The notes under the pieces were generated by a model that made no database searches, was not told the DNA's origin, and saw only the letters and a list, made by a program, of their open reading frames with translations. Positions 5,952-38,156 of a stretch of 39,804 nt of DNA are shown piece by piece. Source of the DNA: a virus; the IMG/VR virus record IMGVR_UViG_3300037234_000251, positions 1-39,804 of that record; one strand, given 5' to 3'. The position numbers were made by a program, and so were the translations under genes. Numbering within the stretch: position 1 is the first letter of the stretch; every line of letters starts with the position of its first letter.

Positions 5952-6524
5952 TTAATATTTTATTATAAATAATACCCCTAAATAAGCGGGCACAATGTCA
6001 AATGCTGTGCTTGTTCCGGTCGTTCCTGTAACTCCTCCGTGATCATGCGCTCCCGATGCGCTTGTGACCGCACTATCCGCGTTACCATACGCCGAATATC
6101 CCGGTGAAAATGTTCGCGCAGGATTTGTGCTTGGGACATTAGTTGTAATTGCTTCTGTATGTAAATGCTCGCCGTCTGGATCAATCGTATGATTATGCGA
6201 TGGCAGTTCAGCAACTCCCATAAGTTTTGTTCCGCCTCCAGTATTGCCCACGGAATATGAACTTCCAGCACCCACGGGGAAGCGATCAATTAATTGAGGC
6301 AACTGAAAAGTTGTTCCCCCACTGCCGAATGTGTATCCGATAACCGCGAACAGATCGGGGTATGCGGCCACGGGCACCACAGCCCCATAGCAACCAAGCC
6401 ATCCGATCGGGACGCTGCCGCCTGCGTGCATAATTATAGAGCCTGGCTGTGCCATATCACTGCGTAAATTATTGTATTGGCTGGCCCTGATGTCGTCGCC
6501 CCAGAACGCGTCTTGTGAAAACAT
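5952..6524 (-). CDS. Tail-collar domain adhesin, single module
   Basis: 190 residues, with AAGGAG before the start. The sequence has the phage tail collar (microcystin-dependent protein) signature: QPGSIIMHAGGSVPIGWLG, YPDLFAVIGYTFGSGGTTF, a LPQLIDRFPVGAG block and SHNHTIDPDGEHLH with His-rich turns, ending in PAYLGVLFIIKY. This domain forms trimeric fibre tips and receptor-contacting ends in phages. It lies directly after a longer protein made of two such modules, with which it also shares the N-terminal QYNNLR segment, so the pair looks like a duplication product. Confidence 0.85.
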   Translation of the reverse strand: MFSQDAFWGDDIRASQYNNLRSDMAQPGSIIMHAGGSVPIGWLGCYGAVVPVAAYPDLFAVIGYTFGSGGTTFQLPQLIDRFPVGAGSSYSVGNTGGGTKLMGVAELPSHNHTIDPDGEHLHTEAITTNVPSTNPARTFSPGYSAYGNADSAVTSASGAHDHGGVTGTTGTSTAFDIVPAYLGVLFIIKY

Positions 6525-6535
6525 ATCCCAACTCC

Positions 6536-7675
6536 TTAATATTTAATACAAAATGTAAGCCCTATATAACTTGGGAGCACATTAAATGCGGAGCCCGTGC
6601 CGATTGATCCCGTTGTGCCTCCATGTGTATGCGTGCCCACGGGGGCGGATCCTACTGTCACCTGGAACCCCGATGTGAAATTGCCATGAAAGCAGCATAA
6701 TGTAGATCCTGCGGGATACGAGCTGTTTGTGCGCGGAAAAGTATGCGAATGGGTCGGGGAATTAGGCATTGTGTGCGTATGCGCCGGAAGGTTAGCAGAC
6801 ACGATTGTTGCTGTTCCTCCTCCCGTAACGCCTAATGCTTTAGTTCCTGATTTACCAATGACGAAGCGATCTCGTAAATCCGGCATAGAAAATGACGCTC
6901 CTGCGCCTCCGTAAGTATAGCCAAATAAATCAAATAAATCTTCATAGGTTGTGGTGCTTACCGATTGCCCGTTGCATAATAAATAACCTGTCGGCGGTGC
7001 AGCATGTCCGTGCATAACCACCCCACCACTCGGCACGCGTGCACGGCGTAATTGATTATACTGCGTATCTAATACATCATCTAATGCAGCCACATCGGAG
7101 GATTGATTGCTGTTGCATATTATAAAATTAAGTGCGTAATAAGGCGCCTCAAGGGAAATGGGTGTCGCCGACCCAACAGTCACAAGCGTATGGGCATGCA
7201 CCTCAAGCACACTCATCTCCAGTGATCCGGTGTCTAACTGCGCGTATGTATTTGCGGGCAGTCTATTTATAGTTGGGGTAGTTGCTCCAGACTGAGACAA
7301 TGTATGGGAATGCGCTGCCTGCGTTGAAATTGTATGAGTATGACTTTTTATATTTGCCTCAACAAGAGTAGCCGATCCGCCTCCTGTACCACCCATCGAA
7401 TAAGAACTTCCTTGTCCTACGGGGTGTCTATCCTGCATATTCGGAAGATTAAACGAACTGCCTGATCCGCCAAATGTATAGCCGATAACCCCGAATAGCG
7501 CAGCATAGGTTGTGGTGTCCAACGACTGCCCTTGACACAGAAGCCAATCAGCAGGGATGTCAAAAGGATCAGCCGTAAACATAATAATACTGCCAAGGTG
7601 CATACGATCCTTTCGCAGATTGTTATATTGCGTGGCTAATAAATTATCGCCTGCAGCTACGGTACTGGAAATCAT
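6536..7675 (-). CDS. Tail-collar adhesin with two tandem modules
   Basis: 379 residues built from two copies of the same roughly 190-residue module. Each copy starts with a QYN-LR segment, then G-(SI/GV)-(IM/VM), a cysteine-containing LLCQGQS or LLCNGQS, a GYT-GG strand, a (N/D)-(MQ/LR)-DR turn and a His-rich loop, and ends in a PYY or PSYIGL strand. The first ends near residue 188 (LNFIICN) and the second near 379 (LTFCIKY). Each is a phage tail collar domain, likely the distal receptor-binding part of the tail fibre. Confidence 0.85.
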   Translation of the reverse strand: MISSTVAAGDNLLATQYNNLRKDRMHLGSIIMFTADPFDIPADWLLCQGQSLDTTTYAALFGVIGYTFGGSGSSFNLPNMQDRHPVGQGSSYSMGGTGGGSATLVEANIKSHTHTISTQAAHSHTLSQSGATTPTINRLPANTYAQLDTGSLEMSVLEVHAHTLVTVGSATPISLEAPYYALNFIICNSNQSSDVAALDDVLDTQYNQLRRARVPSGGVVMHGHAAPPTGYLLCNGQSVSTTTYEDLFDLFGYTYGGAGASFSMPDLRDRFVIGKSGTKALGVTGGGTATIVSANLPAHTHTMPNSPTHSHTFPRTNSSYPAGSTLCCFHGNFTSGFQVTVGSAPVGTHTHGGTTGSIGTGSAFNVLPSYIGLTFCIKY

Positions 7676-10125: not shown

Positions 10126-10428
10126 TTACGCTCCTATCAGTGGCACAAAATCAAATATATATAAATAGGCCGTCATGGTGCTCTCCTTAATCCATAACCA
10201 GCCAGGCTTTGCCGTTGTCGGCGTTGCCTCTTGTATAATTACATTAATATAATTGTCGTCGGGGGTTAATTCAGTAATGAAGCTGCCGCCTGATAAGAAT
10301 AGCGCCCACGAGTTCAGCCATATATAGCATTGGTAGGAAGAGCTTGCTATTGGCTTAATCCATATCTCACCCATGTACGGGCTTGACGGGGCTGTGCCGC
10401 TTAATGATATTTGACGGTAGTAAATCAT
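10126..10428 (-). CDS. Small tail protein with IWIKP module
   Basis: 100 residues, starting in a TAATG overlap with the tape-measure stop. The segments GEIWIKP (near residue 21) and GWLWIKESTMTAYLY (near residue 76) match GKIWIKPSTGQAYIRL at the N-terminus of the hub protein encoded immediately downstream, so this looks like two copies of a short Trp-rich beta module. Probably a tail-tip component; exact function unknown. Confidence 0.6.
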   Translation of the reverse strand: MIYYRQISLSGTAPSSPYMGEIWIKPIASSSYQCYIWLNSWALFLSGGSFITELTPDDNYINVIIQEATPTTAKPGWLWIKESTMTAYLYIFDFVPLIGA

Positions 10429-12350
10429 TACAGTTTCCTGTTTCGCTTGATCTTCTTTATTATCTCAGTTCCTATAATATCGCCCATCCGGCGCGCTTCG
10501 CCGCGTGTGGATATAGGAGGAACGGTTACATATATATTTCCGCCTGTTCCCATCCCACCCGCGCCCATTGCCTTACGCAACGCCGAGGATAACGCCTCGA
10601 TGGCGTTCGGACTCTTTAGGGGCAGCGCAAGCTCTGGGCCAGCCTCACCGAATATCGCAGGAGTCGCCGAGCTTACAAGACCACCCTGAGCGAACTTCTG
10701 TGCTTTAATCTTTGCCACCTGCATCATTCCCGCCGCGGTGGCTAATGCCGCGAGTATGGCACCCATCGGAAACCCACCAGTCGCCAGTGCTTTTGTAGCA
10801 CCCACAGCCGTATTTGCTATGGCCTGCGCTATCATCAAGGGCTTCATCTTGCTGCGTGCCTTGCGTTCCTCATTCGACGCGTGGCTGCGTAAATTGTCAA
10901 GGCGTGCGGAATGGCCTTTCTCTAACTCATCAAGCTGCCGATCGCGCTCGCCTTCGTCTTTCACATTCTTAACAATCTGTGCTTTGCGTGTTTCATACTG
11001 CTGATTCTCTGAATCGACGGATGTTTGCAAATTGTTTCGGATCTGCTGTGTCCTTAAATCTGTATAGTCGCTGTAAGTATCTGACACCGCGCCGACGAAC
11101 TCTTGCACCGCCACCGCATCCTCCGCCTGCTGATCGAGCTTCTCTTGCTTCTGTGTCTCTCGCTGTTCAGCCATAAACTCATTCATCGCAAGATGGAGCT
11201 CTTCAAAGTCGGTATACTTTTCGTCGTTCTGTTCTTTTTCCTTCTCTAAGTCCTCAGCCGCTATCTTCCGCTGCCGGTCTATTGCGTTTTTAACAATCGC
11301 GGTCTTGCGGTCTTGCGCACGCTTCGTAAACTTCACATCTAGTTTGTTAATCTTTTTAATTGTTTCTCCGTACTTGATAACAGAGTCCCCCATGTCAGAG
11401 AACGCATCACTCACCACCTTCTTTAATTCCTGTTGCGCCATTTTAGCCAGATTGAAATCGCCCGTAAACACACCTTTCAAAATCGCACCAAACGAGGCCA
11501 TAATCTGTCCGCCAATCTTAAAGGTGTTTACGATTGCTTGGCGCAGTAGATCAAAAAATCCGACAGCACCAACTACAATTTTAAGCACCCATTCAAGCGC
11601 ATTACCTATGCGCGCAACCCCGCCATCTAAATTATCGGCACTCGACAACCATTTGTCAAATGCTGGTACCAGTTGGTTTTTTATAACATCCGTTAATTCT
11701 GCAAATACGGGAATAACGAACTCTCCCACTTTCTCCCATAAATCCCCAACGGCATTGTTTAATTGTTTTATTTGCCCTTCAAATGTAAGCGCGTCTGCGG
11801 CCGCGGCACCTCCAAATATTTTTGATATATTCTGCACAGCCATGCGTGCCCGATCGGTAGAACCAGCGGCACCTTCCACCGTGATTCCGTAGCGTGTTAG
11901 CGCATTGGTCGAGCTTCCGACTGATTTAGCAACCAGATCGCCGGCGGCTTTTAAGTCCATACCTTTCGCTGCTGCCAGGTCGAGGGTGGCGCGTGTTAAA
12001 TCGTCAAGCTCTTGCCCTTCAATTCCGAAGTTCGTTAACATGCGCTGAACGCCCAGGATCATCTCATCCCCAAAGGTTGTCACCTTTTGGAGGGACGCGG
12101 CATACGCCAGATTGTGCTCCATCGCATCTTCAGTAAAAGTACCTGCTGTCACCATCGCCTGCGCCAGCGCGTTCGTAGCGGATTCTTGCACAGAGGCCGC
12201 TTTCGCGGCTTTAATCGCAACGCCGGTCAACGCCGCACCCATGATCAGGCCAGCCTTCGCTATCTTGTCGATAGACGCGCGGGCAGCCTTAAACCCCTTG
12301 CTGTCGAGCTTTGATCCTATAGTAACGAAAAACGATCCGAGTTCCGACAC
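10428..12350 (-). CDS. Tail tape measure protein
   Basis: 640 residues, the longest tail gene, directly after the chaperone/HNH region as in most siphoviruses. N-terminal helices (KAARASIDKIAKAG, ALTGVAIKAAKAAS) lead into an Ala/Gly-rich stretch with a membrane-like region near residues 250-300, then a long charged coil (residues about 350-520, for example EKEQNDEKY and RDRQLDELEKGHS). The end holds GGLVSSATPAIFGEAGPEL, a sequence typical of the C-terminus of tape measure proteins. At about 0.15 nm per residue the tail would be roughly 100 nm long (inference). Confidence 0.9.
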   Translation of the reverse strand: MSELGSFFVTIGSKLDSKGFKAARASIDKIAKAGLIMGAALTGVAIKAAKAASVQESATNALAQAMVTAGTFTEDAMEHNLAYAASLQKVTTFGDEMILGVQRMLTNFGIEGQELDDLTRATLDLAAAKGMDLKAAGDLVAKSVGSSTNALTRYGITVEGAAGSTDRARMAVQNISKIFGGAAAADALTFEGQIKQLNNAVGDLWEKVGEFVIPVFAELTDVIKNQLVPAFDKWLSSADNLDGGVARIGNALEWVLKIVVGAVGFFDLLRQAIVNTFKIGGQIMASFGAILKGVFTGDFNLAKMAQQELKKVVSDAFSDMGDSVIKYGETIKKINKLDVKFTKRAQDRKTAIVKNAIDRQRKIAAEDLEKEKEQNDEKYTDFEELHLAMNEFMAEQRETQKQEKLDQQAEDAVAVQEFVGAVSDTYSDYTDLRTQQIRNNLQTSVDSENQQYETRKAQIVKNVKDEGERDRQLDELEKGHSARLDNLRSHASNEERKARSKMKPLMIAQAIANTAVGATKALATGGFPMGAILAALATAAGMMQVAKIKAQKFAQGGLVSSATPAIFGEAGPELALPLKSPNAIEALSSALRKAMGAGGMGTGGNIYVTVPPISTRGEARRMGDIIGTEIIKKIKRNRKL

Positions 12351-12352
12351 GA

Positions 12353-12967
12353 TTATCTCCTTTTCCGGCGGCCCATATAATTATCTGTGCTTTTATGACA
12401 TTCTTCGCACAATGTTTGCCCATTCGTAATCTCAAAACGCAGTGTGGGGTAATGCGCAAATGACTTCAAATGGTGGGCGGTTAAATATACCTTAGCGGCT
12501 CCGCACATCTGACACGTATAATCATCACGTGCAAATACACTTTCTCGCCACAACTTATACGCAACCGAATAGTAGCCTGTTTTATAATGTTTGCTTCTGC
12601 CACCTTTCCAATTGTACGGCTTTTTCTTCTTGTGCGACACGCTCATTTTTAATCGGGTTGCAATTGAATGCTGCTTGCCGGTATTGCACATACACAATTT
12701 ATCACGGGTGTCCTGCGACACAACATGTCCACTCTGTGCCTTTGACATTTTTAATCTAGTTTCTTCAGAATGGCTGTGGCCAGACATAGAAAATGCTTGT
12801 CGCGTGTGCATCGTTCGCTTAGAACCAGCAGCTATTTTCTGTTTATGTGTTTCCGACAACGACTTTCCTAAATGAGCATCTCTGTTCTTCTGATTTGCGT
12901 CCGCAGTATGCTTCCTACCTTTCATATAAGGAACATGCCCCTTTTTGAATGTTCCTGCGTTATGCAT
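12353..12967 (-). CDS. HNH homing endonuclease with NUMOD3 repeats
   Basis: 204 residues. The N-terminal half holds several NUMOD3-type DNA-binding repeats (GRKHTADANQKNRD, GHSHSEETRLKMSKAQSG, GKQHSIATRLKMSVSH). The C-terminal half is an HNH nuclease with a CQMC pair at 152-155, AHHLKSF around 164-170, NGQTLCEECHK near 182-191, and a basic tail. This is the layout of free-standing phage homing endonucleases, which cut intron-less or endonuclease-less alleles at the same place. It sits exactly between the tail assembly chaperone and the tape measure, with 1-2 bases separating it from both neighbours. Confidence 0.88.
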   Translation of the reverse strand: MHNAGTFKKGHVPYMKGRKHTADANQKNRDAHLGKSLSETHKQKIAAGSKRTMHTRQAFSMSGHSHSEETRLKMSKAQSGHVVSQDTRDKLCMCNTGKQHSIATRLKMSVSHKKKKPYNWKGGRSKHYKTGYYSVAYKLWRESVFARDDYTCQMCGAAKVYLTAHHLKSFAHYPTLRFEITNGQTLCEECHKSTDNYMGRRKRR

Positions 12968-21320: not shown

Positions 21321-22481
21321 TTACTTAATGCTTAATTTGGAAAACGCCTGTGGAAGCGCAACATCAAGAGACATTCTCTTTTTGAAGCGGAACCAAGTTT
21401 CATCTTCCATGAACGCACTCTGACTGTTCCCAATGTCCGATGCGCTGATTGAGGACTTCACCTCATACCCGCCACGATCTGACACGAAGAAATGCTTTTT
21501 GTAATTCCCGAACAGGATCGGAGTTTCGTCGTTTCCAGTTCCAAGATCCAAAGGAAGCTCATCCGATATCAAGTAAGGAACGCCCCATATGGATGCAGGA
21601 GTAGTCGCCGTCGGAGGCGCCCACAAGTAACGATCTTCCTGATCTTTAAGTTTCATAAGCAGCTTCAGCCCAGCGGTTGAAGTTACAAGTGTTGCGCCTG
21701 TGCGATACTTCGCGTTGAGGGACATGATCAAGTCGATTATGTCATCGCCCACCACATTAGCACCGGCCATTGCCACACTATTCACACCCGAGGCATACAA
21801 CACGCCCATGAAAGGGTCGCCCGCGCCGGTGTTACCTGCCAGAGCCACACGATCCTCTTCCCGCCCCATCGCTTCCGCGACAAGCCCCATGATGAACTGA
21901 TCAAGGCCTGCAGTGTTATCTTCTAGCAACTCATCGGTCATTTTAACAATGGCCGCGAGCTTTTTGGCAGTCTGCACGAGACGATCAAATGTCGGATTCG
22001 TCTCAGTTTTCGCCGCGCCTTCACCAGTCCAGGTGACGGTCACATCGGTAAGCTGCCGAGGCAGATTCCGAACATCCGTCGCCATAGGAAAGATTTTAGC
22101 GATCTGTCGAATTATGCTGTTGTCTTTCTCCAGCTTGATTATCTCATGTGAATACTCCTCAGGCACCGTATAACCACCGAGAGAATCCGTCCCCTCTACC
22201 ATCGTGGCCTTAATGTGCGCCCGAACATCCTCACTAACTGACTGCTCTTTCCCAGGCGTCACCGCCTTGAGATATTGGGCAAGACAAACCTTCTTGTCAC
22301 TTGGGTCTTTACTATTAATCGCCCAAGTCATTTTACGCGCAGGGGGATTAATCTTGTCCATCACCCTGTTAAAAAGCTCATCTGCTTCTTTCTTCTGTGC
22401 ATCACCAGAAACCTTAGCTGAAAGCGTCTCGCGAAGCTCGTCAACAGATTTCTGCAAACTTTCAAGTTCTTTTGAATCCAT
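21321..22481 (-). CDS. HK97-type major capsid protein
   Basis: 386 residues. Residues 1-40 are a charged coil (LESLQKSVDELRETL), the scaffolding delta domain usually cut off by the protease. A capsid core follows: SLGGYTVPEEYSHEIIKL, TEVTVTW-type strand TDVTVTWTGEG, KLAAIVKMTDELLED, FIMGLVAEAMGREEDRVAL and GAGDPFMGVLYASG, all typical of the Phage_capsid family. C-terminal region ends DETWFRFKKRMSLDVALP. The order protease-capsid and the nearby protease support maturation cleavage. AGGAGGACG lies upstream of the start. Confidence 0.93.
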   Translation of the reverse strand: MDSKELESLQKSVDELRETLSAKVSGDAQKKEADELFNRVMDKINPPARKMTWAINSKDPSDKKVCLAQYLKAVTPGKEQSVSEDVRAHIKATMVEGTDSLGGYTVPEEYSHEIIKLEKDNSIIRQIAKIFPMATDVRNLPRQLTDVTVTWTGEGAAKTETNPTFDRLVQTAKKLAAIVKMTDELLEDNTAGLDQFIMGLVAEAMGREEDRVALAGNTGAGDPFMGVLYASGVNSVAMAGANVVGDDIIDLIMSLNAKYRTGATLVTSTAGLKLLMKLKDQEDRYLWAPPTATTPASIWGVPYLISDELPLDLGTGNDETPILFGNYKKHFFVSDRGGYEVKSSISASDIGNSQSAFMEDETWFRFKKRMSLDVALPQAFSKLSIK

Positions 22482-22494
22482 CGTTGTCGTCCTC

Positions 22495-23379
22495 CTATTG
22501 TAGTTTTTTAATTATGGCCTTCAGGTCGTTGGCTATTTCACCAAATTTATTTGACCTGTCGGGTTCTTGCAATTCTTCCTCACTCTTTATTTTAGGTAGC
22601 TCTTCAATAACTGACTTTTCAACTTCCACACCGACTTCTTTTTGTTCCTCAGTAGCTGCATACAGCTCTTGAAGAACTACGATTGCGTTTTTAATTGCTG
22701 TTCTGTTCTTTTTGGATAATACGCGTCCCTCCTTTTTTTCAAGCTGTGCTTCAGCTATTTCTACATCTTTAACGATTGAGGTCGGCTCATCAACAAGCCC
22801 TTTCGCAATAGCTATCTGCAAAGCTTCTGGATTTGATGGTATAGGAACATCGGAATACTCAAGCATTGTCCATTTTGTATACCGCCTTCTTGCTCCACCG
22901 TATAATTTAGATTCTGCTTCGGTTAGCTCCTCAACTTCTAAAGGAACGAATCCGATTGACTCCGCCAAAGGGAATCCCTCTTTCCTATAATTAAACACGC
23001 GCTGCGCTTCTTCGTGTGATGCGTATATCGTTTTCGCAATTAAGCCCTTTGCATCCATCTTCACCCATTCGCATTTCCCAATCGGCAACTTTTTATAGTC
23101 ATGCCCGAACAATACAACAGGGTGCTTCATATAATCAGTAAGAACCGCACCTTCTGGCTCTACAATTTCCCCATCCCGATCAACCGCGGCTGTAGAAATG
23201 TAACTTATGACCGCCCGCTCGCCTTCTTTAATCTCAAGGTCGGTAGGTATCAGCCCCTTACGAATAAGCTGAACATCATCCTCTTTCATCCCGTGCTGCT
23301 CGGCTATAGCTTTCGCAGCGCCTGGGTTTATATCCTTCAATCTTAATTTCTGAGTTATTTTCATAATCTGCTCGTCCAT
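22495..23379 (-). CDS. HK97-family prohead protease with C-terminal scaffold
   Basis: 294 residues when started at ATG 23379 (MDEQIMKITQ), which has AGGAGG 7 bases upstream and forms a TAATG overlap with the portal stop; a longer start at 23421 lies inside the portal gene. The S78 serine-protease core is clear: AVISYISTAAVDRDGEI, His93 in VVLFGHDYKKLPIG, Ser141 in FPLAESIGFVP. The last about 90 residues form a charged helix-rich scaffold tail. It would cut the capsid delta domain and itself in the prohead. Confidence 0.88.
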   Translation of the reverse strand: MDEQIMKITQKLRLKDINPGAAKAIAEQHGMKEDDVQLIRKGLIPTDLEIKEGERAVISYISTAAVDRDGEIVEPEGAVLTDYMKHPVVLFGHDYKKLPIGKCEWVKMDAKGLIAKTIYASHEEAQRVFNYRKEGFPLAESIGFVPLEVEELTEAESKLYGGARRRYTKWTMLEYSDVPIPSNPEALQIAIAKGLVDEPTSIVKDVEIAEAQLEKKEGRVLSKKNRTAIKNAIVVLQELYAATEEQKEVGVEVEKSVIEELPKIKSEEELQEPDRSNKFGEIANDLKAIIKKLQ

Positions 23380-25589
23380 TATAAATCCTCCTGTGTTAAT
23401 CCGGCTTGCGTACACCTGCAATTAATAATTTCACCTGCGTCTCCAGTCGGATCACCAGGATTCATTAGTCCATTTGAAAACTTATCTTCCTTTTTCACAA
23501 CCTCGCCATCAATGGTGTGGGTATCCCGCACCAAACCATCCCGCGAGCTTATCCATTCTTTATGTGTCACAACTTCGGACTGCTTATACACCTCGGCCGC
23601 CCCCTGATTCGTGGCCGAGATGACTTCAGTTCGTGCGATCATTTCCGTGCGTGATCCTTTCGCTATATCAAACACGCCGGTGATTCGCTTTTCAACGGCG
23701 GGTATCCCTTCACCCTCTTTAATAGCTTCTTTAAGTGTTTTCCGCAGTGCTTCCTGCGTTGTAGTATTTACATCGTTTGCAAACTTAAATGATTTTTTAT
23801 CAATCCACTTGGCAACCTCTGGATTCTCTAAATCAAACGCTATGTCTAATCCAAGCTCTGCGATTTCTGTGGTTGCTTGCGTATTCATAGCCTCTTCGAT
23901 TCGCGGCGTAGCTAACTTTTTAGCATCCTTATTCTCATCCTTAATATTAAAAATTATCGAATCAATTTTATTATCGGACTGCTTATTATTCTTGAATCTA
24001 ACCTCCTGACACAACTCTTTCCATCCGATTCTTTCCAGATTGTTTAATACTGTTTTCTCCTGATCATTAAAAAACTTCGTAAGCGGCGGATACCATTTCT
24101 TTTCTAATTTCTCAGTGACGTCTTTATAAACGCCCCATTTTTTATCACGGAACTCTTTGCGAACCGCTGCGCGCTTTTCTTCCGCTGACAATTCCGGCTC
24201 CGCGGGAGTCTCGACGACTTCAACTTTCGTTTCCGGCGCAATCGGTTCTATTTCTAACTCAGGTTCTTTCTTGGTTACGGGCGGCTCTACGGTAGGCTCC
24301 GGCTCTTTAGGTGCTTTATCCTTCGGCGGCTCATCGTCCTTCGGCGGATCTGAAAACATAGGATTCACAAAATTAATATCCACCAAATTATTCATCTTGA
24401 GTAGCACATCACCACCATCAATCGGAGGCAGCCCACGCTCTAAGCGAACCTCGTTGATTGACATTATGCCAGATGCGATTAATATACGCTCCGTTTCCGC
24501 GCGTACCTTCTCATCCTCCTGCAATTCTTCAACATCACTGAAATCGAACTCCACTTTCAAATTGGGGTCATACACCTTAACCAAAAACTCATTGATCGTG
24601 CCTGCAATCTGTTTCAGCTTCGGCACCATCGTGTCCTTCCAAAATATTTCCCGCTGCTCCTGGGAATTAGCATAGTTCGCGTACTCGAATATCCCTACCA
24701 TCACGGGCGGAACACCAAACACGCCGAGTATATCTTCCCGCGTCATCTTCTTGCTCTGAATAAACTCCATATCCTTCTGGCTAAGTCCGATCGGCATCCA
24801 CTTCAAGCCTCCGTCAACCAGCCCCGACTTGTGTGCGTTCGCTGTGCCCTGGTGCATCGTGCGCCACATATGCGTGATCTGTTTCCGTTGCTCGTGCGTC
24901 AATGCATTGTCCGATGTTAGCATACCGCGCGGCTCTGCCGAGTTCTCAAAGAACTTTTTATTATAATTGTCACCGAGGTTCTGCGTCTCCACTGCCAAAC
25001 GCCCTGCGGACAGTGCCGACAACCCGTAATATTCATCTTGAGAATTAAAATATTTGAAATGAATGATTTGTTCCGGCGGAATTGAAATAGTTTTATCTTC
25101 TGATATTTTATAATTATATGCCTTGATACGATCAATTTTATCTGGTATAATTTCAACCTGGGAAGGACACAACGGGTATATCTCCGTCGGTTTTCCACGC
25201 ATAAACTTATCCAAGAACCAATATGAGTTCCCAGTAAGCTCTAAATGTGATAGGGTTGTTTCTCGCAGGTCTGCACCGGTCATGTGTGGGTTTACTTTGT
25301 CGAGCAAATCAAGAACCGGATGTTCCTGCACCGTCTCGTAACCAATCTTCCCGTTCTTCCGCACCTTTTTCATAACGACAAACGGAACGCCCGCGGCTTT
25401 CGTTGCAATCCTGCGAACACACGCGAACACCCATGTAGCGTCTGCATATTGCTCAAGGTATTTGGCATAATTCTCATGCCCGCCTGCGCCTAATGTGTAT
25501 CCGCTTGTCACTATGGGGTTTGCATACAACGAGGAGGGGGCTTTCTTGCTATAACCTAATTTTGAAAAGAATCTCTCGAAAAAACGCAT
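23379..25589 (-). CDS. Portal protein fused to a MuF-type minor head protein
   Basis: 736 residues. Residues 1-410 are an HK97-type portal: WVFACVRRIATKAAGVPF, GNSYWFLDKFMRG, YYGLSALSAGRLAVE, then ILGVFGVPPVMVGIFE and the clip/wing region. A Pro/Glu/Lys linker spans about 414-470. The C-terminal 260 residues match the Mu gpF / SPP1 gp7 minor head domain: KGSRTEMIARTEVISATNQG, HKEWISSRDGLVRDTH, and NCRCTQAG near the end. Portal and MuF genes are normally separate neighbours, so this is a fusion. It would give one minor-head domain per portal subunit. Confidence 0.88.
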   Translation of the reverse strand: MRFFERFFSKLGYSKKAPSSLYANPIVTSGYTLGAGGHENYAKYLEQYADATWVFACVRRIATKAAGVPFVVMKKVRKNGKIGYETVQEHPVLDLLDKVNPHMTGADLRETTLSHLELTGNSYWFLDKFMRGKPTEIYPLCPSQVEIIPDKIDRIKAYNYKISEDKTISIPPEQIIHFKYFNSQDEYYGLSALSAGRLAVETQNLGDNYNKKFFENSAEPRGMLTSDNALTHEQRKQITHMWRTMHQGTANAHKSGLVDGGLKWMPIGLSQKDMEFIQSKKMTREDILGVFGVPPVMVGIFEYANYANSQEQREIFWKDTMVPKLKQIAGTINEFLVKVYDPNLKVEFDFSDVEELQEDEKVRAETERILIASGIMSINEVRLERGLPPIDGGDVLLKMNNLVDINFVNPMFSDPPKDDEPPKDKAPKEPEPTVEPPVTKKEPELEIEPIAPETKVEVVETPAEPELSAEEKRAAVRKEFRDKKWGVYKDVTEKLEKKWYPPLTKFFNDQEKTVLNNLERIGWKELCQEVRFKNNKQSDNKIDSIIFNIKDENKDAKKLATPRIEEAMNTQATTEIAELGLDIAFDLENPEVAKWIDKKSFKFANDVNTTTQEALRKTLKEAIKEGEGIPAVEKRITGVFDIAKGSRTEMIARTEVISATNQGAAEVYKQSEVVTHKEWISSRDGLVRDTHTIDGEVVKKEDKFSNGLMNPGDPTGDAGEIINCRCTQAGLTQEDL

Positions 25590-26040: not shown

Positions 26041-26213
26041 CCTACAGCTTTACATTTCGGGCACAGCCAATCATGCCCTTTTTTCTTTTTCCCAAAGAAA
26101 TCACTTGTCAGCGTCAAGTGTCGCGGCTTGCTATCATACACCAGGCTCAATGCCGTAACCTCGCACTTATCACAGACAAGCGTTGCTCTAAATGAGGTGG
26201 TAATCTTAATCAT
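26037..26213 (-). CDS. Zinc-ribbon micro-protein after terL, 58 aa
   Basis: Starts at 26213 in an ATGA overlap with the terminase stop and ends at 26037. It contains CDKC near residue 14 and CPKC near residue 51, a zinc-ribbon pair on either side of a basic segment (GKKKKGHDW). Small zinc-ribbon proteins are common in phage packaging regions; a DNA or terminase-binding role is possible. Confidence 0.65.
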   Translation of the reverse strand: MIKITTSFRATLVCDKCEVTALSLVYDSKPRHLTLTSDFFGKKKKGHDWLCPKCKAVG

Positions 26214-27598
26214 AGTATGGATAGGCTCGGCCCCAGAGCAGGACGATTAAAATATTCAACCGCCTTCAGTGCCAATACAAGCGCATCTGGGAAATCTGGT
26301 GATTTCAGCCCTCGCCGCATCATCTCCTCTTTAGTTTCAATCTTAATACACCCCTTCCCGCGGGATAACACCGAATACTTGCGCCCTGGTAGCTGCGCGC
26401 ACAGCATCTCATGGTTCGGTATCTGTATCCCGTCATTCTCAAACAACTTCCTCAAGTTCCAGTGCATTTCAGCAGACAGGTTCGCAAAGTGCTCAGGATC
26501 CCCCGCAGCGCTACCATTGTTGATCCCCCGCACCTCTTGCCCATCCTCGCGTAATCTATCAACCACGCCCCCGCCAAGCCCTGAATCATCTATGCAGACG
26601 GCATGTGCGGGTATCTTGTGTCGATTCATCATCATTTTAACCTGTCCCGCTGTCTCCATCGTATCCTTCCCGCGGTAACTCTTGATCTCAGTAACCTTCC
26701 CGCCATGCACCACGCACAGCACCGTTTGAGCGCTTCCGAACCGCGCCACATCGACACCCAGCCCAATCGGCCCCTCAGCAGGCATCTCCGAGTTCCGCGC
26801 CCTATCCACCCACGCCATCGGGATCAGGACATCATCGCTCTCAGCGGGAAACTCAGCCAGCACCTTCGTAATATACAACGGGCTACGGTCGCCCCAGTCC
26901 GCCTTCCTATTCTCCATCCATTTCTTAGATACCAGCCCTGGAATCAAGTCTTTCCCCGACTGCACATTCGGCGTATCGAACGCGCTGATCTTGATCCGAT
27001 TCCAATGAGTCGCGTTACGGCATGCTTCGTAGTACCGCCCAGACGGCGAGGTCGGATTCCCCAACACCAATATACGACTCTTCTCATTCGACACCAATGA
27101 CACACCTACATCCCATAGTTTCGGGTTTATACCTTGTGCCTGATCCATTATAACCAATACATGTGGGCTGTGATACCCCTCGAACCGATACGCCTCCGCA
27201 TCTACATTAATCTGTGGCGATACCCCTATGACGAACCAATCCTTCGCAAGCTGCAACTCCGTGCCGAGTGGTCGCCCGCCCAACGGCAGCTTAGCCCGAT
27301 TGTACGCCGCGTGAATCTCAGCAAACAGAATCTTTTCAACCTGCGGCCATGATGACGAGGTACAAATTATCTTGCACGGACAGCGCGTATACAAGAACCA
27401 CAGCGCCACCTGTGCCGCAGTAAACGACTTCCCTGATCCGTAACATGATTGCACTACGGTCTGCATATTCTCATCAACCGACTTCATTATCTCCGTCTGT
27501 TTACCCCACGGCTTAGCACCGAGTATCTCGCGCGAGAACGCCGCCGGATTGTGCATATATTTATTTATAAAACTCCGTGCCACCTGGTCTTTGTCCAT
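26210..27598 (-). CDS. terL: Large terminase subunit
   Basis: 462 residues, the packaging motor. The Walker A motif is SCYGSGKS (51-58). The Walker B strand HVLVIMDQAQGI has Asp152 but Gln153 where the catalytic Glu is expected; codon CAG at 27142-27140 is clear. Motif III-like ILVLGNPTSPSGRYY follows at 176-190. The RNase-H-fold nuclease half has GLGVDVARFG (Asp283), VCIDDSGLGGGV (Asp337/338) and SPDFPDALVLAL (Asp438), so its three acidic metal ligands are present. The start has TAGGAG upstream and overlaps the 112-residue zinc protein gene. Confidence 0.9.
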   Translation of the reverse strand: MDKDQVARSFINKYMHNPAAFSREILGAKPWGKQTEIMKSVDENMQTVVQSCYGSGKSFTAAQVALWFLYTRCPCKIICTSSSWPQVEKILFAEIHAAYNRAKLPLGGRPLGTELQLAKDWFVIGVSPQINVDAEAYRFEGYHSPHVLVIMDQAQGINPKLWDVGVSLVSNEKSRILVLGNPTSPSGRYYEACRNATHWNRIKISAFDTPNVQSGKDLIPGLVSKKWMENRKADWGDRSPLYITKVLAEFPAESDDVLIPMAWVDRARNSEMPAEGPIGLGVDVARFGSAQTVLCVVHGGKVTEIKSYRGKDTMETAGQVKMMMNRHKIPAHAVCIDDSGLGGGVVDRLREDGQEVRGINNGSAAGDPEHFANLSAEMHWNLRKLFENDGIQIPNHEMLCAQLPGRKYSVLSRGKGCIKIETKEEMMRRGLKSPDFPDALVLALKAVEYFNRPALGPSLSIL

Positions 27599-30067: not shown

Positions 30068-30184
30068 CTAATTCTCCAGTGCCCGCATCAACTCGCCGCA
30101 TTGTGGGCATGTGTCTATGCTGCCGTGATCACCATCCGTATAGCTAATCGAATCGCAGCTGGGGCAATAGAATACTCTATTCAT
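30068..30184 (-). CDS. Zinc-ribbon micro-protein, 38 aa
   Basis: MNRVFYCPSCDSISY then DTCPQCGELMRALEN: a CxxC...CxxCG zinc ribbon of the rubredoxin/RNA-polymerase style. It overlaps the end of the small terminase gene by 8 bases and has GAGGCACCCA upstream. One of several zinc ribbons in the packaging operon. Confidence 0.65.
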   Translation of the reverse strand: MNRVFYCPSCDSISYTDGDHGSIDTCPQCGELMRALEN

Positions 30185-30548
30185 TGGGTGCCTCCTCAGT
30201 GGCGTCATCTAGTTCCTTCACCTCAGCGTCAATCACATCATCAGCCTTTTGTTTCTGGTCATTGGCTATAAGCGCGGCGAGATCCTGTAGCGTGAAGTTG
30301 CGGCTGTCTACCTCGGATAGATCCGGTACCATCTTCCGCATCAAGGCTATAAGCACAGCATCGTTCTTGTAACTCCTCATCACCGCGTGCTCAAGGATAT
30401 CAACGCCGTTCTCTTCCTTTAGCTTCTGTAACGCCTCTTTGAATATCTCAACCTCTGGCCGGCGTGGCCTACCTTTACAATTAATTGATTCTGGATGATC
30501 GCCGAATCCACCCTTGCCTGTGGGGTTGCGGGCTGCATCGTATCCCAT
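30177..30548 (-). CDS. Probable small terminase subunit, DUF5681-type
   Basis: 123 residues. The N-terminus (NPTGKGGFGDHPESINCKGR then PRRPEV) is the DUF5681 signature that is common beside phage terminase genes. The rest is helical: EALQKLKEENGVDILEHAV and NDAVLIALMRKMVP, followed by an acidic tail. Small terminases recognise packaging sites and load the large subunit. The gene is first in the packaging transcript, 140 bases downstream of a strong promoter, and is parted from terL by about 2.6 kb of small genes. The assignment is inferred from pattern and location. Confidence 0.6.
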   Translation of the reverse strand: MGYDAARNPTGKGGFGDHPESINCKGRPRRPEVEIFKEALQKLKEENGVDILEHAVMRSYKNDAVLIALMRKMVPDLSEVDSRNFTLQDLAALIANDQKQKADDVIDAEVKELDDATEEAPNE

Positions 30549-31334: not shown

Positions 31335-32315
31335 ATGAATCAACTAATCAACAAAGACTGCATCGAAGCCCTCAAACAAGTGCCAGACAAGTCAGTAAAC
31401 CTCATCGTAATTGATCCTCCTTATAACATCAACAAAGCAGCGTGGGACAGGATCGCAAACTATAACGAGTGGATGTTGTCGGTGTTCTTAGAGCTTCAGC
31501 GCGTGCTCGCGGACAACGGCAGCTTCTACTTTTTCCACAACGACTTCCTGCGGATCGTAGAGCTTCAGGCCTTACTATCTACACGAACGCGGTTCATATT
31601 CAAGCAGTTTATGGTTTGGAACAAGCGGTTTGATGGATACCATAATCAATTAAACGCTTTGGTACATTCGGATGATTTGCGGAATTACTCTAAGCAATGC
31701 GAATACTTCCTTTACTACACATTCCAAGACGAGACCGGATTGACAACCGTCATGCTTGACACCAACAACTTCTCGACGCTGCGGCGATACTTTAAGGAGT
31801 TGCAGGAATACATTGGCGTATCGAAAAAGGAAATATTGAGCAAAATCGGACAGTGTGCGGATCATTGTTTTAGATGGAAAAGCACACAATGGGATATACC
31901 TACACCTGAAACGTATCAGAAGTGCATTGACACTTATAATATCAATTGGTGGCCGGGGTTCCGCGCGTATGAATCATTACGCCAGGAGTATGAATCATTA
32001 CGCCAGGAGTATGAATCATTACGCCAGGAGTATGAATCATTACGGTACACATTCAACAATCAGAAAACGCACCACAGTGTTTGGAACTATGAGGTGGCGG
32101 ATAAACGCATCGGGCATATTACGCCGAAGCCCTTAGAATTAATTAAAAATATAATCAAGCATAGCAGCAACGAAGGCGACACGGTGTTGGATTGTTTCAT
32201 GGGTAGTGGAACGACTTGTCTTGCGGCACAGCAGCTCGGCCGTCAATATATCGGTATAGAACTGAACGAAAAGTATTTCCAGATCGCCACAAAAAGATTA
32301 CAAGAAAACCCTTGA
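31335..32315 (+). CDS. Beta-class DNA adenine methyltransferase
   Basis: 326 residues. The catalytic motif IV, IDPPYNINKAAW (DPPY at 27-30), comes before the SAM-binding motif FMGSGTTCLAAQQLGRQYIG near residues 284-304, which is the beta-class order (N6-adenine methylation is usual for DPPY, N4-cytosine also possible). HITPKPLELI is the typical segment before motif I. A run of the 7-residue unit YESLRQE, repeated three and a half times, sits at residues 212-237, between the target-recognition part and motif I. It is the first gene after the first accessory promoter and probably protects phage DNA from host restriction. Confidence 0.85.
   Translation: MNQLINKDCIEALKQVPDKSVNLIVIDPPYNINKAAWDRIANYNEWMLSVFLELQRVLADNGSFYFFHNDFLRIVELQALLSTRTRFIFKQFMVWNKRFDGYHNQLNALVHSDDLRNYSKQCEYFLYYTFQDETGLTTVMLDTNNFSTLRRYFKELQEYIGVSKKEILSKIGQCADHCFRWKSTQWDIPTPETYQKCIDTYNINWWPGFRAYESLRQEYESLRQEYESLRQEYESLRYTFNNQKTHHSVWNYEVADKRIGHITPKPLELIKNIIKHSSNEGDTVLDCFMGSGTTCLAAQQLGRQYIGIELNEKYFQIATKRLQENP
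31968..32044 (+). repeat. 21-bp tandem repeat within the methyltransferase gene
   Basis: Three identical 21-base units at 31968-31988, 31989-32009 and 32010-32030 and a 14-base partial copy to 32044, in frame with the gene, encoding YESLRQE each time. Perfect identity suggests recent expansion by slippage or recombination, and copy changes would keep the reading frame while altering the linker between target-recognition and cofactor parts. Confidence 0.9.
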
Positions 32316-35316: not shown

Positions 35317-35476
35317 AGTATTCTCAAAATGGATGGACGACCCGCGATTGCTTGAGGGTGCGTTCACAGATGAGCGCCGCGCAACAACGCTCGCCGAGCA
35401 GCTACAAGAGGAAAATAATCCAGGTTTATACCGCGTGTATATTAGCGCGGTGGAGGAGACATCATGCACAAAGTAA
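35303..35476 (+). CDS. Small protein, 57 aa
   Basis: ATG 35303 with AAGGAGAG upstream. MIIYRVFSKWMDDPRL, EGAFTDERRATTLAEQLQEE and LYRVYISAVEET: a beta-alpha-beta design. Overlaps the next methyltransferase start by 13 bases. Family unknown. Confidence 0.6.
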   Translation: MIIYRVFSKWMDDPRLLEGAFTDERRATTLAEQLQEENNPGLYRVYISAVEETSCTK

Positions 35477-36756
35477 TCAATGGTAACAGCATCGACAAGC
35501 TGAAAGCACTCGAAGCGGATTCCGTAGACACCATCATTACGGATCCACCCTATGGCCTGTCCTTCATGGGCAAGAAGTGGGATTATGATGTACCATCCGT
35601 AGACCTGTGGAAGGAAGCCCTAAGAGTGCTGAAGCCTGGTGGTACGGCACTTATATTTGCAGGCAGCAGGACACAGCACAGAATGGCCGTCAACGTAGAG
35701 GACGCCGGATTCATATTAAAGGATTGTATAATGTGGCTATATGGGAGTGGCTTCCCGAAGGCTACGGATATTAGCAAGCAGTTGGATAAGGGGCATGAGA
35801 GGGAAGTTATAGGCAAGAGCAAGGCGTATAGAGAAAATGCAAAGAGTCATAATATTGTAGCAAAACATGAGTACAGTGGTCAGGCATTTGAAACTACACC
35901 AGCAACCCCCGAAGCCAAACTCTGGGAAGGATGGAAGTCGCATGGCTTGAAACCAGCATATGAGCCAATACTTGTGGCTGTTAAACCAAACGACGGAACA
36001 TATGCCGAGAACGCATTGAAGCACGGAGTATCTGGTCTTAACATTGATGGTGGGAGAATACCAACCCACGATAAATTAGGCGGTGGAGGACAGACGCGAG
36101 ATACATTCATTGGAAAAGATGGCTGGGATCGTCCGTGGAGACATGACGAAGACAAACTAAAAGAAAAATTGATACGTGTGAACGAGTCTGTACGGATTGG
36201 TGAAGAAAAAGGCCGCTTCCCAGCCAACATAATCTTAGACGAGGAGGCGGGGCGTCTATTGGACGAACAGAGTGGGGAGAGCAAAAGTTCAGCGACACAA
36301 AGGAATAATTCCGCCAGTAAGAATATAGCCATGAGTGGAGATAATTTAGGGCATACATCTTATGGACATAACGACAAAGGCGACGCATCAAGATTCTTCT
36401 ATTGTGCAAAGGCAAGCAAGAAAGAACGCAACGCTGGGTGTGAGGGGATAGAAGAGAAAAACGGAGGCATGGTTCCTGAAAGGAAAGAAGCGAAGTTAAA
36501 CAGGAATGGTAAAAATCCAATTCTTAAAAACAATCATCCGACGGTCAAACCAATAGCATTGATGGAGTACCTATGCACATTGACCAAGACACCAACAGGC
36601 GGCACGGTGTTGGATCCATTCATGGGATCAGGAACCACAGGCGTCGCGGCGATCAATACACAACGCGATTTCATCGGAATCGAGTTGTCAGAGGAATATA
36701 TAAAAATTGCAGAGGCGAGGTTGAATCATGCGCAAACTAACAAAGCTACAGATTAA
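35464..36756 (+). CDS. Beta-class DNA methyltransferase 2
   Basis: 430 residues, longer than the first enzyme. TDPPYGLSFMGKKWDY holds motif IV (DPPY at 27-30), followed by the ALRVLKPGGTALIFAGSRT strand and WLYGSGFPKATD. The SAM-binding motif DPFMGSGTTGVAAI lies near residues 382-395, with the HPTVKPIALMEYLC segment before it. The long middle (residues about 120-360) is a variable target domain. Beta class. Part of the restriction-evasion block; substrate sequence unknown. Confidence 0.86.
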   Translation: MHKVINGNSIDKLKALEADSVDTIITDPPYGLSFMGKKWDYDVPSVDLWKEALRVLKPGGTALIFAGSRTQHRMAVNVEDAGFILKDCIMWLYGSGFPKATDISKQLDKGHEREVIGKSKAYRENAKSHNIVAKHEYSGQAFETTPATPEAKLWEGWKSHGLKPAYEPILVAVKPNDGTYAENALKHGVSGLNIDGGRIPTHDKLGGGGQTRDTFIGKDGWDRPWRHDEDKLKEKLIRVNESVRIGEEKGRFPANIILDEEAGRLLDEQSGESKSSATQRNNSASKNIAMSGDNLGHTSYGHNDKGDASRFFYCAKASKKERNAGCEGIEEKNGGMVPERKEAKLNRNGKNPILKNNHPTVKPIALMEYLCTLTKTPTGGTVLDPFMGSGTTGVAAINTQRDFIGIELSEEYIKIAEARLNHAQTNKATD

Positions 36757-36984: not shown

Positions 36985-37161
36985 ATGACAAAGTATGAAC
37001 GCTTTCACCGTGCCGTTGCGTACCTGAAGAGTAAACATCCGGAACGATTCAAACTGCAAACAACGACATTCTCGTCGGTGAACTGGTTACAATGTATGGA
37101 GCGTTCCGTAGCCACGGGAACATGGTTCACAATCGACACATATTGGAGAGACAGCCGATGA
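36985..37161 (+). CDS. Small protein, 58 aa
   Basis: ATG 36985 with AAGGAGC upstream; ATGA overlap with the third methyltransferase. MTKYERFHRAVAYLKSKHPE, helical, then a polar end (ATGTWFTIDTYWRDSR). Function unknown. Confidence 0.6.
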   Translation: MTKYERFHRAVAYLKSKHPERFKLQTTTFSSVNWLQCMERSVATGTWFTIDTYWRDSR

Positions 37162-38156
37162 ACAAAATCCTTGTCGGAGGCGCACTCGAACAGCTCCACA
37201 CCTTGCCCGCGGAGTCCGTGGACATGTGCATCACATCCCCTCCGTATTGGGGGCTGCGGGATTATGGCGTTGCGGGACAGCTAGGCCTCGAGAAAGACTT
37301 CAACGAGTATATTGACAAGTTGTGTAGTATCTTCGACGAGGTTAAGCGCGTACTAAAACCCACGGGTACGTGCTGGGTGAATCTTGGTGATACTTACGCT
37401 GGGGGACAATCGGGAACTGGAGGGGACGGGAAAACCAGCACGTTGAACTGTAAAAGAAATACGGATAAAAGTTTTCATAAAGCTGATAAATCACATGCCC
37501 ATTTTGGCCATAAGATAAAATGGTCATTACCAACAAAATCTCTATGCCAAATCCCATCTCGCTTCGCGATCGAGATGTGCAATCGTGACTGGATACTCCG
37601 CAACGAAATCATATGGCATAAGCCGAACTGTATGCCGTCAAGCGCCAAAGATCGTTTCACCGTGGACTTTGAAAAACTATTTTTCTTCACTAAAAACAAA
37701 AAGTATTATTTCGAGCAGCAGTTTGAAGAAATGTGCATGGAGTCGCTGCGGCGTGAACGGCGCGGAAATCACAAAAATAAGTATTCGGACGACGAGCACT
37801 TCCCTGATGGCGTTCATGCAAACACCATGAGCCAGCCACGCGTGTTTCGCGGGTATGAGGGAATTGACGCGGAATACAACAGCAGGAAAGGTCGAAATAA
37901 ACGGTGTGTTTGGCGAGTAACAACGAAACCCTATAAAGAGGCGCACTTTGCGGTGTACCCAGAAGCGCTGATCGAGGCGCCCATAAACGGCGGCTGTCCA
38001 ACCAACGGCATCGTCCTCGACCCCTTCATCGGATCCGGCACAACCGCCGCGGTGGCCAAGCGACTCGGCCGCCAGTATATCGGGATTGAATTGAACCCTG
38101 ATTATGTTCCCTTGATCGAACGCAGACTCGAATCAGTGCAGATGTATTTATTATAA
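37158..38156 (+). CDS. Beta-class DNA methyltransferase 3, SPPY type
   Basis: 332 residues from ATG 37158, chosen for its ATGA overlap; longer starts lie inside the preceding gene. CITSPPYWGLRDYG holds the SPPY form of motif IV, which is typical of N4-cytosine methyltransferases. KPTGTCWVNLGDTYAGG follows, and DPFIGSGTTAAVAKRLGR lies near residues 291-308. The EIIWHKPNCMPSSAKDR segment is common in this family. Last methyltransferase of the three; then promoter cassette 4. Confidence 0.86.
   Translation: MNKILVGGALEQLHTLPAESVDMCITSPPYWGLRDYGVAGQLGLEKDFNEYIDKLCSIFDEVKRVLKPTGTCWVNLGDTYAGGQSGTGGDGKTSTLNCKRNTDKSFHKADKSHAHFGHKIKWSLPTKSLCQIPSRFAIEMCNRDWILRNEIIWHKPNCMPSSAKDRFTVDFEKLFFFTKNKKYYFEQQFEEMCMESLRRERRGNHKNKYSDDEHFPDGVHANTMSQPRVFRGYEGIDAEYNSRKGRNKRCVWRVTTKPYKEAHFAVYPEALIEAPINGGCPTNGIVLDPFIGSGTTAAVAKRLGRQYIGIELNPDYVPLIERRLESVQMYLL

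Follow-up and report, generated by a model that had tools for sequence, protein, structure and literature searches.

Introduction

The glutamate that follows the Walker B aspartate is regarded as essential to packaging motors, and its replacement by glutamine is the standard change for blocking hydrolysis in P-loop ATPases. In T4 gp17, even an interchange of Asp and Glu within Walker B abolishes packaging (PMC3012670), and changing the Walker B Glu to Ala abolishes the ATPase of the large terminase subunit (TerL) of both HK97 (PMC9410871) and D6E (PMC5727402). The P-loop arginine is a cis residue required for ATPase in D6E, and R139 of the Thermus phage P74-26 TerL has been identified biochemically as a trans-arginine finger (PMC5727402). 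For lambda TerL, a proposal has the P-loop arginine toggling between two partners, the Walker B Glu and a lid Glu (PMC9410871). Among P-loop NTPases, the Walker B Asp has been argued to be the final proton trap, and Gln-containing sites have been discussed (PMC9599734).

The TerL described here is encoded in a 39,804-nucleotide stretch of viral DNA, the whole of which we call the window. Its domain order and fold are common to the TerLs of D6E, HK97, T4, and Sf6. However, it lacks both the Walker B Glu (E143 in D6E, E154 in HK97) and the P-loop arginine that D6E and HK97 need for ATPase or packaging, and it has Gln in place of the Glu of T4, whose Walker B is needed for packaging. The P74-26 TerL (4zni, 4znl) shares with it the ATPase fold, Walker A, the Walker B Asp, and a Q72-like Gln86, but reads ...ILDEAAM and has Arg at columns 53 and 140, where the window has Gln153, Tyr53, and Glu140. 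Direct homologues, 30-52% identical over the full length, are the TerLs of the phrog_2, vir525, and Arthrobacter phage Amigo types together with two sister sequences, L017 and L018; unlike the window, all of these have Glu at 153. A search of open-licence papers gave no account of a naturally occurring Gln-type TerL. What appears to be new is thus the natural Gln at the catalytic-Glu site, the TerL family itself being already known.

Results

The window encodes a TerL with Gln at the Walker B Glu position

The TerL ORF (27598..26210, minus strand) starts with ATG and specifies 462 amino acids with no internal stops. Its features and those of the surrounding genes are given below; Glu types and Gln types are TerLs with the respective residue at column 153, and group 1 is the Gln-type clade that contains the window.

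30177..30548, minus strand: probable small terminase, upstream of TerL; no family match, but L305, L306, and L308 of group 1 have a similar ORF at this position
26210..27598, minus strand: TerL, large terminase subunit, with N-terminal packaging ATPase and C-terminal RNase H-like nuclease
27449..27451, minus strand: Gln50; mostly Arg or Lys in Glu types, never Arg or Lys in Gln types
27425..27448, minus strand: Walker A SCYGSGKS, residues 51-58, with Lys57 and Ser58 retained
27440..27442, minus strand: Tyr53, in the P-loop arginine column (P74-26 R39, HK97 R56, T4 R162)
27179..27181, minus strand: Glu140, in the column of the P74-26 trans-arginine finger R139 (marked by 4zni versus the R139A mutant 4znj)
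27143..27145 (read 27145-27143), minus strand: Walker B Asp152, codon GAT, kept in 28/28 Gln-type and 300/310 Glu-type TerLs
27140..27142 (read 27142-27140), minus strand: Gln153, codon CAG, where Walker B would have its catalytic Glu
27053..27061, minus strand: Gly-Asn-Pro, residues 180-182, where strand 175-180 ends; Asn181 is kept in 28/28 Gln types
26750..26752 and 26588..26590, minus strand: Asp283 and Asp337, conserved nuclease acidic residues alongside Asp438
26285..26287, minus strand: Asp438, conserved nuclease acidic residue
23379..25589, minus strand: portal protein fused to a head-morphogenesis domain (phrog_2662, E 2e-141); a 44-51% identical neighbour is present in all group 1 loci
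22495..23421, minus strand: head maturation protease
21321..22481, minus strand: major head protein (phrog_10, E 2.3e-70)

The Walker B of the window TerL is HVLVIMDQAQGI. The ORF translation agrees with the original prediction that Asp152 is kept and that Gln153 is encoded by CAG at 27142-27140; the span given there, 27139-27143, clips the Asp codon.

The protein matched phrog_2 with an E value of 2.8e-33 and 503 phage records at E<1e-5, and its Pfam Terminase_6C score of 21.2 bits was slightly below the cut-off of 22.6. AlphaFold2 gave a confident two-domain model (mean pLDDT 93.9), whose best full-length match among solved structures was Sf6 TerL (Z 25 over 399 residues); the E217 nuclease matched with Z 24 and the P74-26 ATPase domain with Z 23 (2.4 A over 213-214 residues, VIA-align). 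Downstream of TerL, the portal/head-morphogenesis fusion, protease, and major head protein follow the normal head-gene order. Because homology, fold, and neighbourhood agree, we conclude that the Gln153 protein is a terminase large subunit and a member of a known family. Walker A Lys57 and Ser58 and Walker B Asp152 are all present. The catalytic Glu after this Asp is absent although the fold is of the ASCE type, so by descent the window TerL belongs to the ASCE division while lacking the E from which that division takes its name.

In the nuclease domain, the columns of Asp283, Asp337, and Asp438 are 99-100% acidic across the family, and all three residues are present in the window. Residue 290 (26729-26731), an Asp in ~94% of relatives, is Ala in the window; Ala or Ser is also found there in L305, L306, L307, and the Glu-type L018. 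Since L018 shares it, this change is a lineage feature independent of Gln153.

Gln at column 153 occurs in two sets of TerLs

The relatives collected by tblastn (28-52% identical; best 80 hits kept), which came from viral contigs, genomes, and phage records, had Glu at column 153 in 174/174 of the matches listed in which that column was aligned. Viral contigs were further scanned with a DNA pattern of the motif with Gln, a second pattern, and profiles. The first Gln-pattern scan returned four real TerLs with DQA, 49-61% identical to the window, a profile scan added L305 (62% identity), and the second pattern together with a profile scan revealed a second, distant Gln set (group 2). The Gln-type TerLs now comprise the window and at least 27 others. 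Group 1 (n=6) consists of the window and five metagenome contigs, L305, L306, L307, L308, and L309, which are 49-62% identical to it and come each from its own IMG/VR dataset; group 2 has 22 members. The idea that Gln153 is unique to the window was rejected, as the pattern and profile scans gave 27 other TerLs with Gln, and for the same reason the residue is a lineage trait, not a private change of the contig.

Alignment at column 153, which the original prediction had suggested as a check, upheld the Gln of the window. Across 338 TerLs this column was Glu in 310 and Gln in 28, with no other residue, a ratio that is not a population frequency because the Gln set was largely chosen by Gln patterns. 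About 100 of the Glu sequences had likewise been selected by a Glu pattern; without them, the counts are 201 Glu versus 28 Gln.

A pattern scan of ~1,100 bacterial or archaeal genomes from three phyla yielded no Gln-type prophages. Its sole match, L381, was a chance match, and the prophage TerLs found by profile all had Glu (7/7). With group 1 and group 2 queries, tblastn found no phage isolates above ~38% identity and, among the phages searched, no cultured phage with a Gln-type TerL; the 14 phage-record TerLs that we inspected were all Glu.

The two Gln groups are phylogenetically separate

In a 45-row tree from which the trait columns had been excluded, group 1 was monophyletic (support 99/96) and adjoined the Glu-type sisters L017 and L018 (100/100), nested inside Glu types, while group 2 formed a separate, distant clade (100/100). 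Two changes between Gln and Glu were needed in 100% of the bootstrap trees. A quick tree of 100 rows agreed with two separate Gln clades, and forcing the 45 rows into a single Gln clade cost 94 log-likelihood units (AU p=0.0001). These results show that Gln153 arose twice and is fixed in two separately evolved TerL clades. For group 1 only, the nesting inside Glu types also points to a direction, from Glu to Gln.

Residues of the ATP site that change together with Gln153

After 153, the well-filled columns that diverged most between Gln and Glu types were 140, 53, and 50 (one insertion column, nearly empty in Glu types, was set aside). Column 140, mostly Gln in Glu types, is Glu in 6/6 members of group 1 and Thr in 22/22 of group 2. 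Compared with the sisters L017 and L018, which have Q140/E153, group 1 shows a reciprocal exchange, Q140E/E153Q. Column 53 is His, Asn, or Gln in Glu types and Phe or Tyr in 27/28 Gln types, but it is only loosely tied to 153 because L017 and L018 already pair Tyr53 with Glu153. As for column 50, we considered and rejected the joint loss of an Arg50-Glu153 salt bridge: many Glu types also lack Arg50, which makes the association one-directional only. All but one of the Gln types (27/28), but none of the Glu types (0/310), combine Phe/Tyr53 and Glu/Thr140 with a residue other than Arg/Lys at 50.

In a HMMER alignment to P74-26 wild type and the R139A mutant (25 bits; a sequence alignment anchored by motifs), column 140 corresponds to R139 and column 53 to the P-loop arginine. 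Except for 50, the most divergent columns would thus be positions already known to shape TerL ATP chemistry. The window TerL has no Arg at the R139 column (Glu140). Arg175, where a D6E-type finger would be, is present in 24/28 Gln types.

Comparison of all columns found no acidic column in the ATPase domain that is new and common to all Gln types; Glu94 and Asp152 are invariant in Gln types, yet common in Glu types. A universal relocated acid was therefore rejected. The earlier suggestion that the catalytic carboxylate has moved fits group 1, with its Glu140, and fails for group 2; with Thr140 in the latter and no new acid common to all Gln types, relocation is possible for the window's clade but is not a general explanation.

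For that clade, the swap of Gln140/Glu153 could mean that the carboxylate was relocated in trans, with Glu140 of one subunit serving the ATP of the next, either as base or as the carboxylate that holds the water. The exchange is complete in group 1, against the Q140/E153 of its Glu-type sisters, and column 140 aligns with a proven trans finger. However, the Gln types of group 2 have Thr140, five Glu types combine Glu140 with Glu153, and HK97 K140, which aligns with the P74-26 finger, is dispensable (PMC9410871). In all, six Glu types pair Glu or Thr at 140 with Glu153, so that residue 140 is not necessarily a substitute for the base. We regard relocation in trans as unlikely. We are as doubtful of the wider proposal that packaging motors twice dropped the Walker B Glu and hydrolyse by a different chemistry, with the carboxylate of the window's clade moved from cis 153 to the neighbour-facing trans 140.

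Gln-type TerLs look functional

We lean toward a working packaging motor of ordinary TerL fold, with an ATP site remodelled around the Gln that stands where the catalytic Glu would be. The dN/dS ratio was ~0.07 in a Gln pair (dN 0.09, dS 1.3) versus ~0.09 in a Glu pair. Gln types have intact frames, even in the three genes where an intein comes directly after Lys57, and keep Lys57 (28/28), Ser/Thr58, Asp152, Asn181, Asp283, and Asp337. The Gln-type genes are under purifying selection and, with their motifs kept and the head genes in normal order, look functional. The presence of a second TerL in the same record was considered and rejected, as each of 12 Gln-type records has exactly one.

Alternatively, TerL could be catalytically dead or very slow, with ATP trapped by Gln153 and packaging driven by residual activity or by a different ATPase. 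This is what the E-to-Q change, the standard hydrolysis block, would lead one to expect, and E-to-A kills the D6E and HK97 ATPases. Moreover, ABC exporters retain degenerate ATP sites, a natural loss of the Walker B Glu kept by selection, as here (PMC7756269). In these exporters, however, each degenerate site is paired with one that hydrolyses, whereas the TerL ring is presumed to be homomeric and Gln would be present in every subunit. Furthermore, 12/12 Gln-type records have a single TerL-like gene, and the scan of window ORFs turned up no other packaging ATPase. The conserved full Walker A/Asp152/Asn181 set, strong purifying selection, and two-lineage origin also speak against an inactive enzyme, which we consider quite improbable.

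A single base separates CAG from GAG, and the window is a metagenome-derived virus record, which would favour an error in its sequence or decay of the gene or of a provirus. However, the sequence change that the original prediction had listed as an option is excluded by Gln in 22 group 2 sequences and in the five further members of group 1, each from a different IMG/VR dataset, and given the 462-codon open frame and the other near-invariant columns kept, error or decay is scarcely credible.

Discussion

If the Gln-type TerL is, as we favour, a working motor with a rebuilt ATP site, then it most likely still hydrolyses ATP, and it probably uses ATP in an unusual way. The side-chain amide of Gln153 might position the attacking water, like the catalytic Gln of Ras-type GTPases. 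No Glu base would then receive the proton; its route would instead run through the Mg shell and the Ser/Thr58-Asp152 pair, which all Gln types (28/28) keep intact. Such chemistry may be shared with the Ras-type (TRAFAC) GTPases, in which Gln holds the water and the Walker B Asp and Walker A Ser/Thr take the proton (PMC9599734), although these enzymes are related through the P-loop fold only and their Gln sits elsewhere in the sequence. With the charge of the Glu lost, the toggle partner of the P-loop arginine, as proposed in lambda TerL, would be gone, and this would account for Phe or Tyr, both non-basic, at 53. For the window's clade, a carboxylate may come in trans from Glu140, which probably faces the ATP of the neighbouring subunit. 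The earlier suggestion that the motor of this lineage works differently gains support, at the level of sequences, from the two origins and from the coupled changes at catalytic positions.

Two independent natural Gln lineages and a Glu-type sister (~52% identity) offer a ready test of whether the Glu serves as base, water holder, or switch. A comparison of the two types could also reveal in what way the Walker B Glu matters to the P-loop arginine and to the trans finger, and the Gln lineages could show whether the Asp-Ser/Thr pair alone suffices for proton transfer.

Additional observations

A different reciprocal swap was seen in Glu-type relatives, in which Walker A changes from GK[S/T] to GKD while the Walker B Asp becomes Ser/Thr ([ST]EA; columns 58 and 152). 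The loci are L032, L040, L064, L070, L125, L150, L155, and L157. Wherever the P-loop of a Ser/Thr152 sequence is readable, column 58 is Asp (8/8), and 17 further sequences have Asp at both 58 and 152. On a single 2.5 Mb Dehalococcoidia chromosome (OY282355.1, a MAG), there are eight TerL-family copies (L124-L130, L133), mostly with a GKD Walker A; these could represent either many related proviruses or a gene-transfer-like element.

Three group 2 Gln-type TerLs contain inteins (L331:2717-5389, L329:2396-5101, and L340:2672-5371, plus strand), located exactly between Walker A Lys57 and Thr58 (GVGK^C...VEHN^T) within one open frame of ~900 codons. A different intein-like tail, VYHWSGN, is present in L330 and in L090 (a Glu type with Thr152), which are probable cut-off cases.

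Elsewhere in the window, the 40 kb phage contig carries three DNA methyltransferase genes, all matching phrog_67 (31335-32315, 35464-36756, and 37092-38156, plus strand). In the tail module, an HNH endonuclease gene (12353-12967, minus strand) adjoins a tape-measure-like gene (10428-12350). Two neighbouring tail-collar/fibre genes (5952-6524 and 6536-7675, minus strand) match the same families, and the longer of them holds two such stretches; the pair is probably a tandem duplication.
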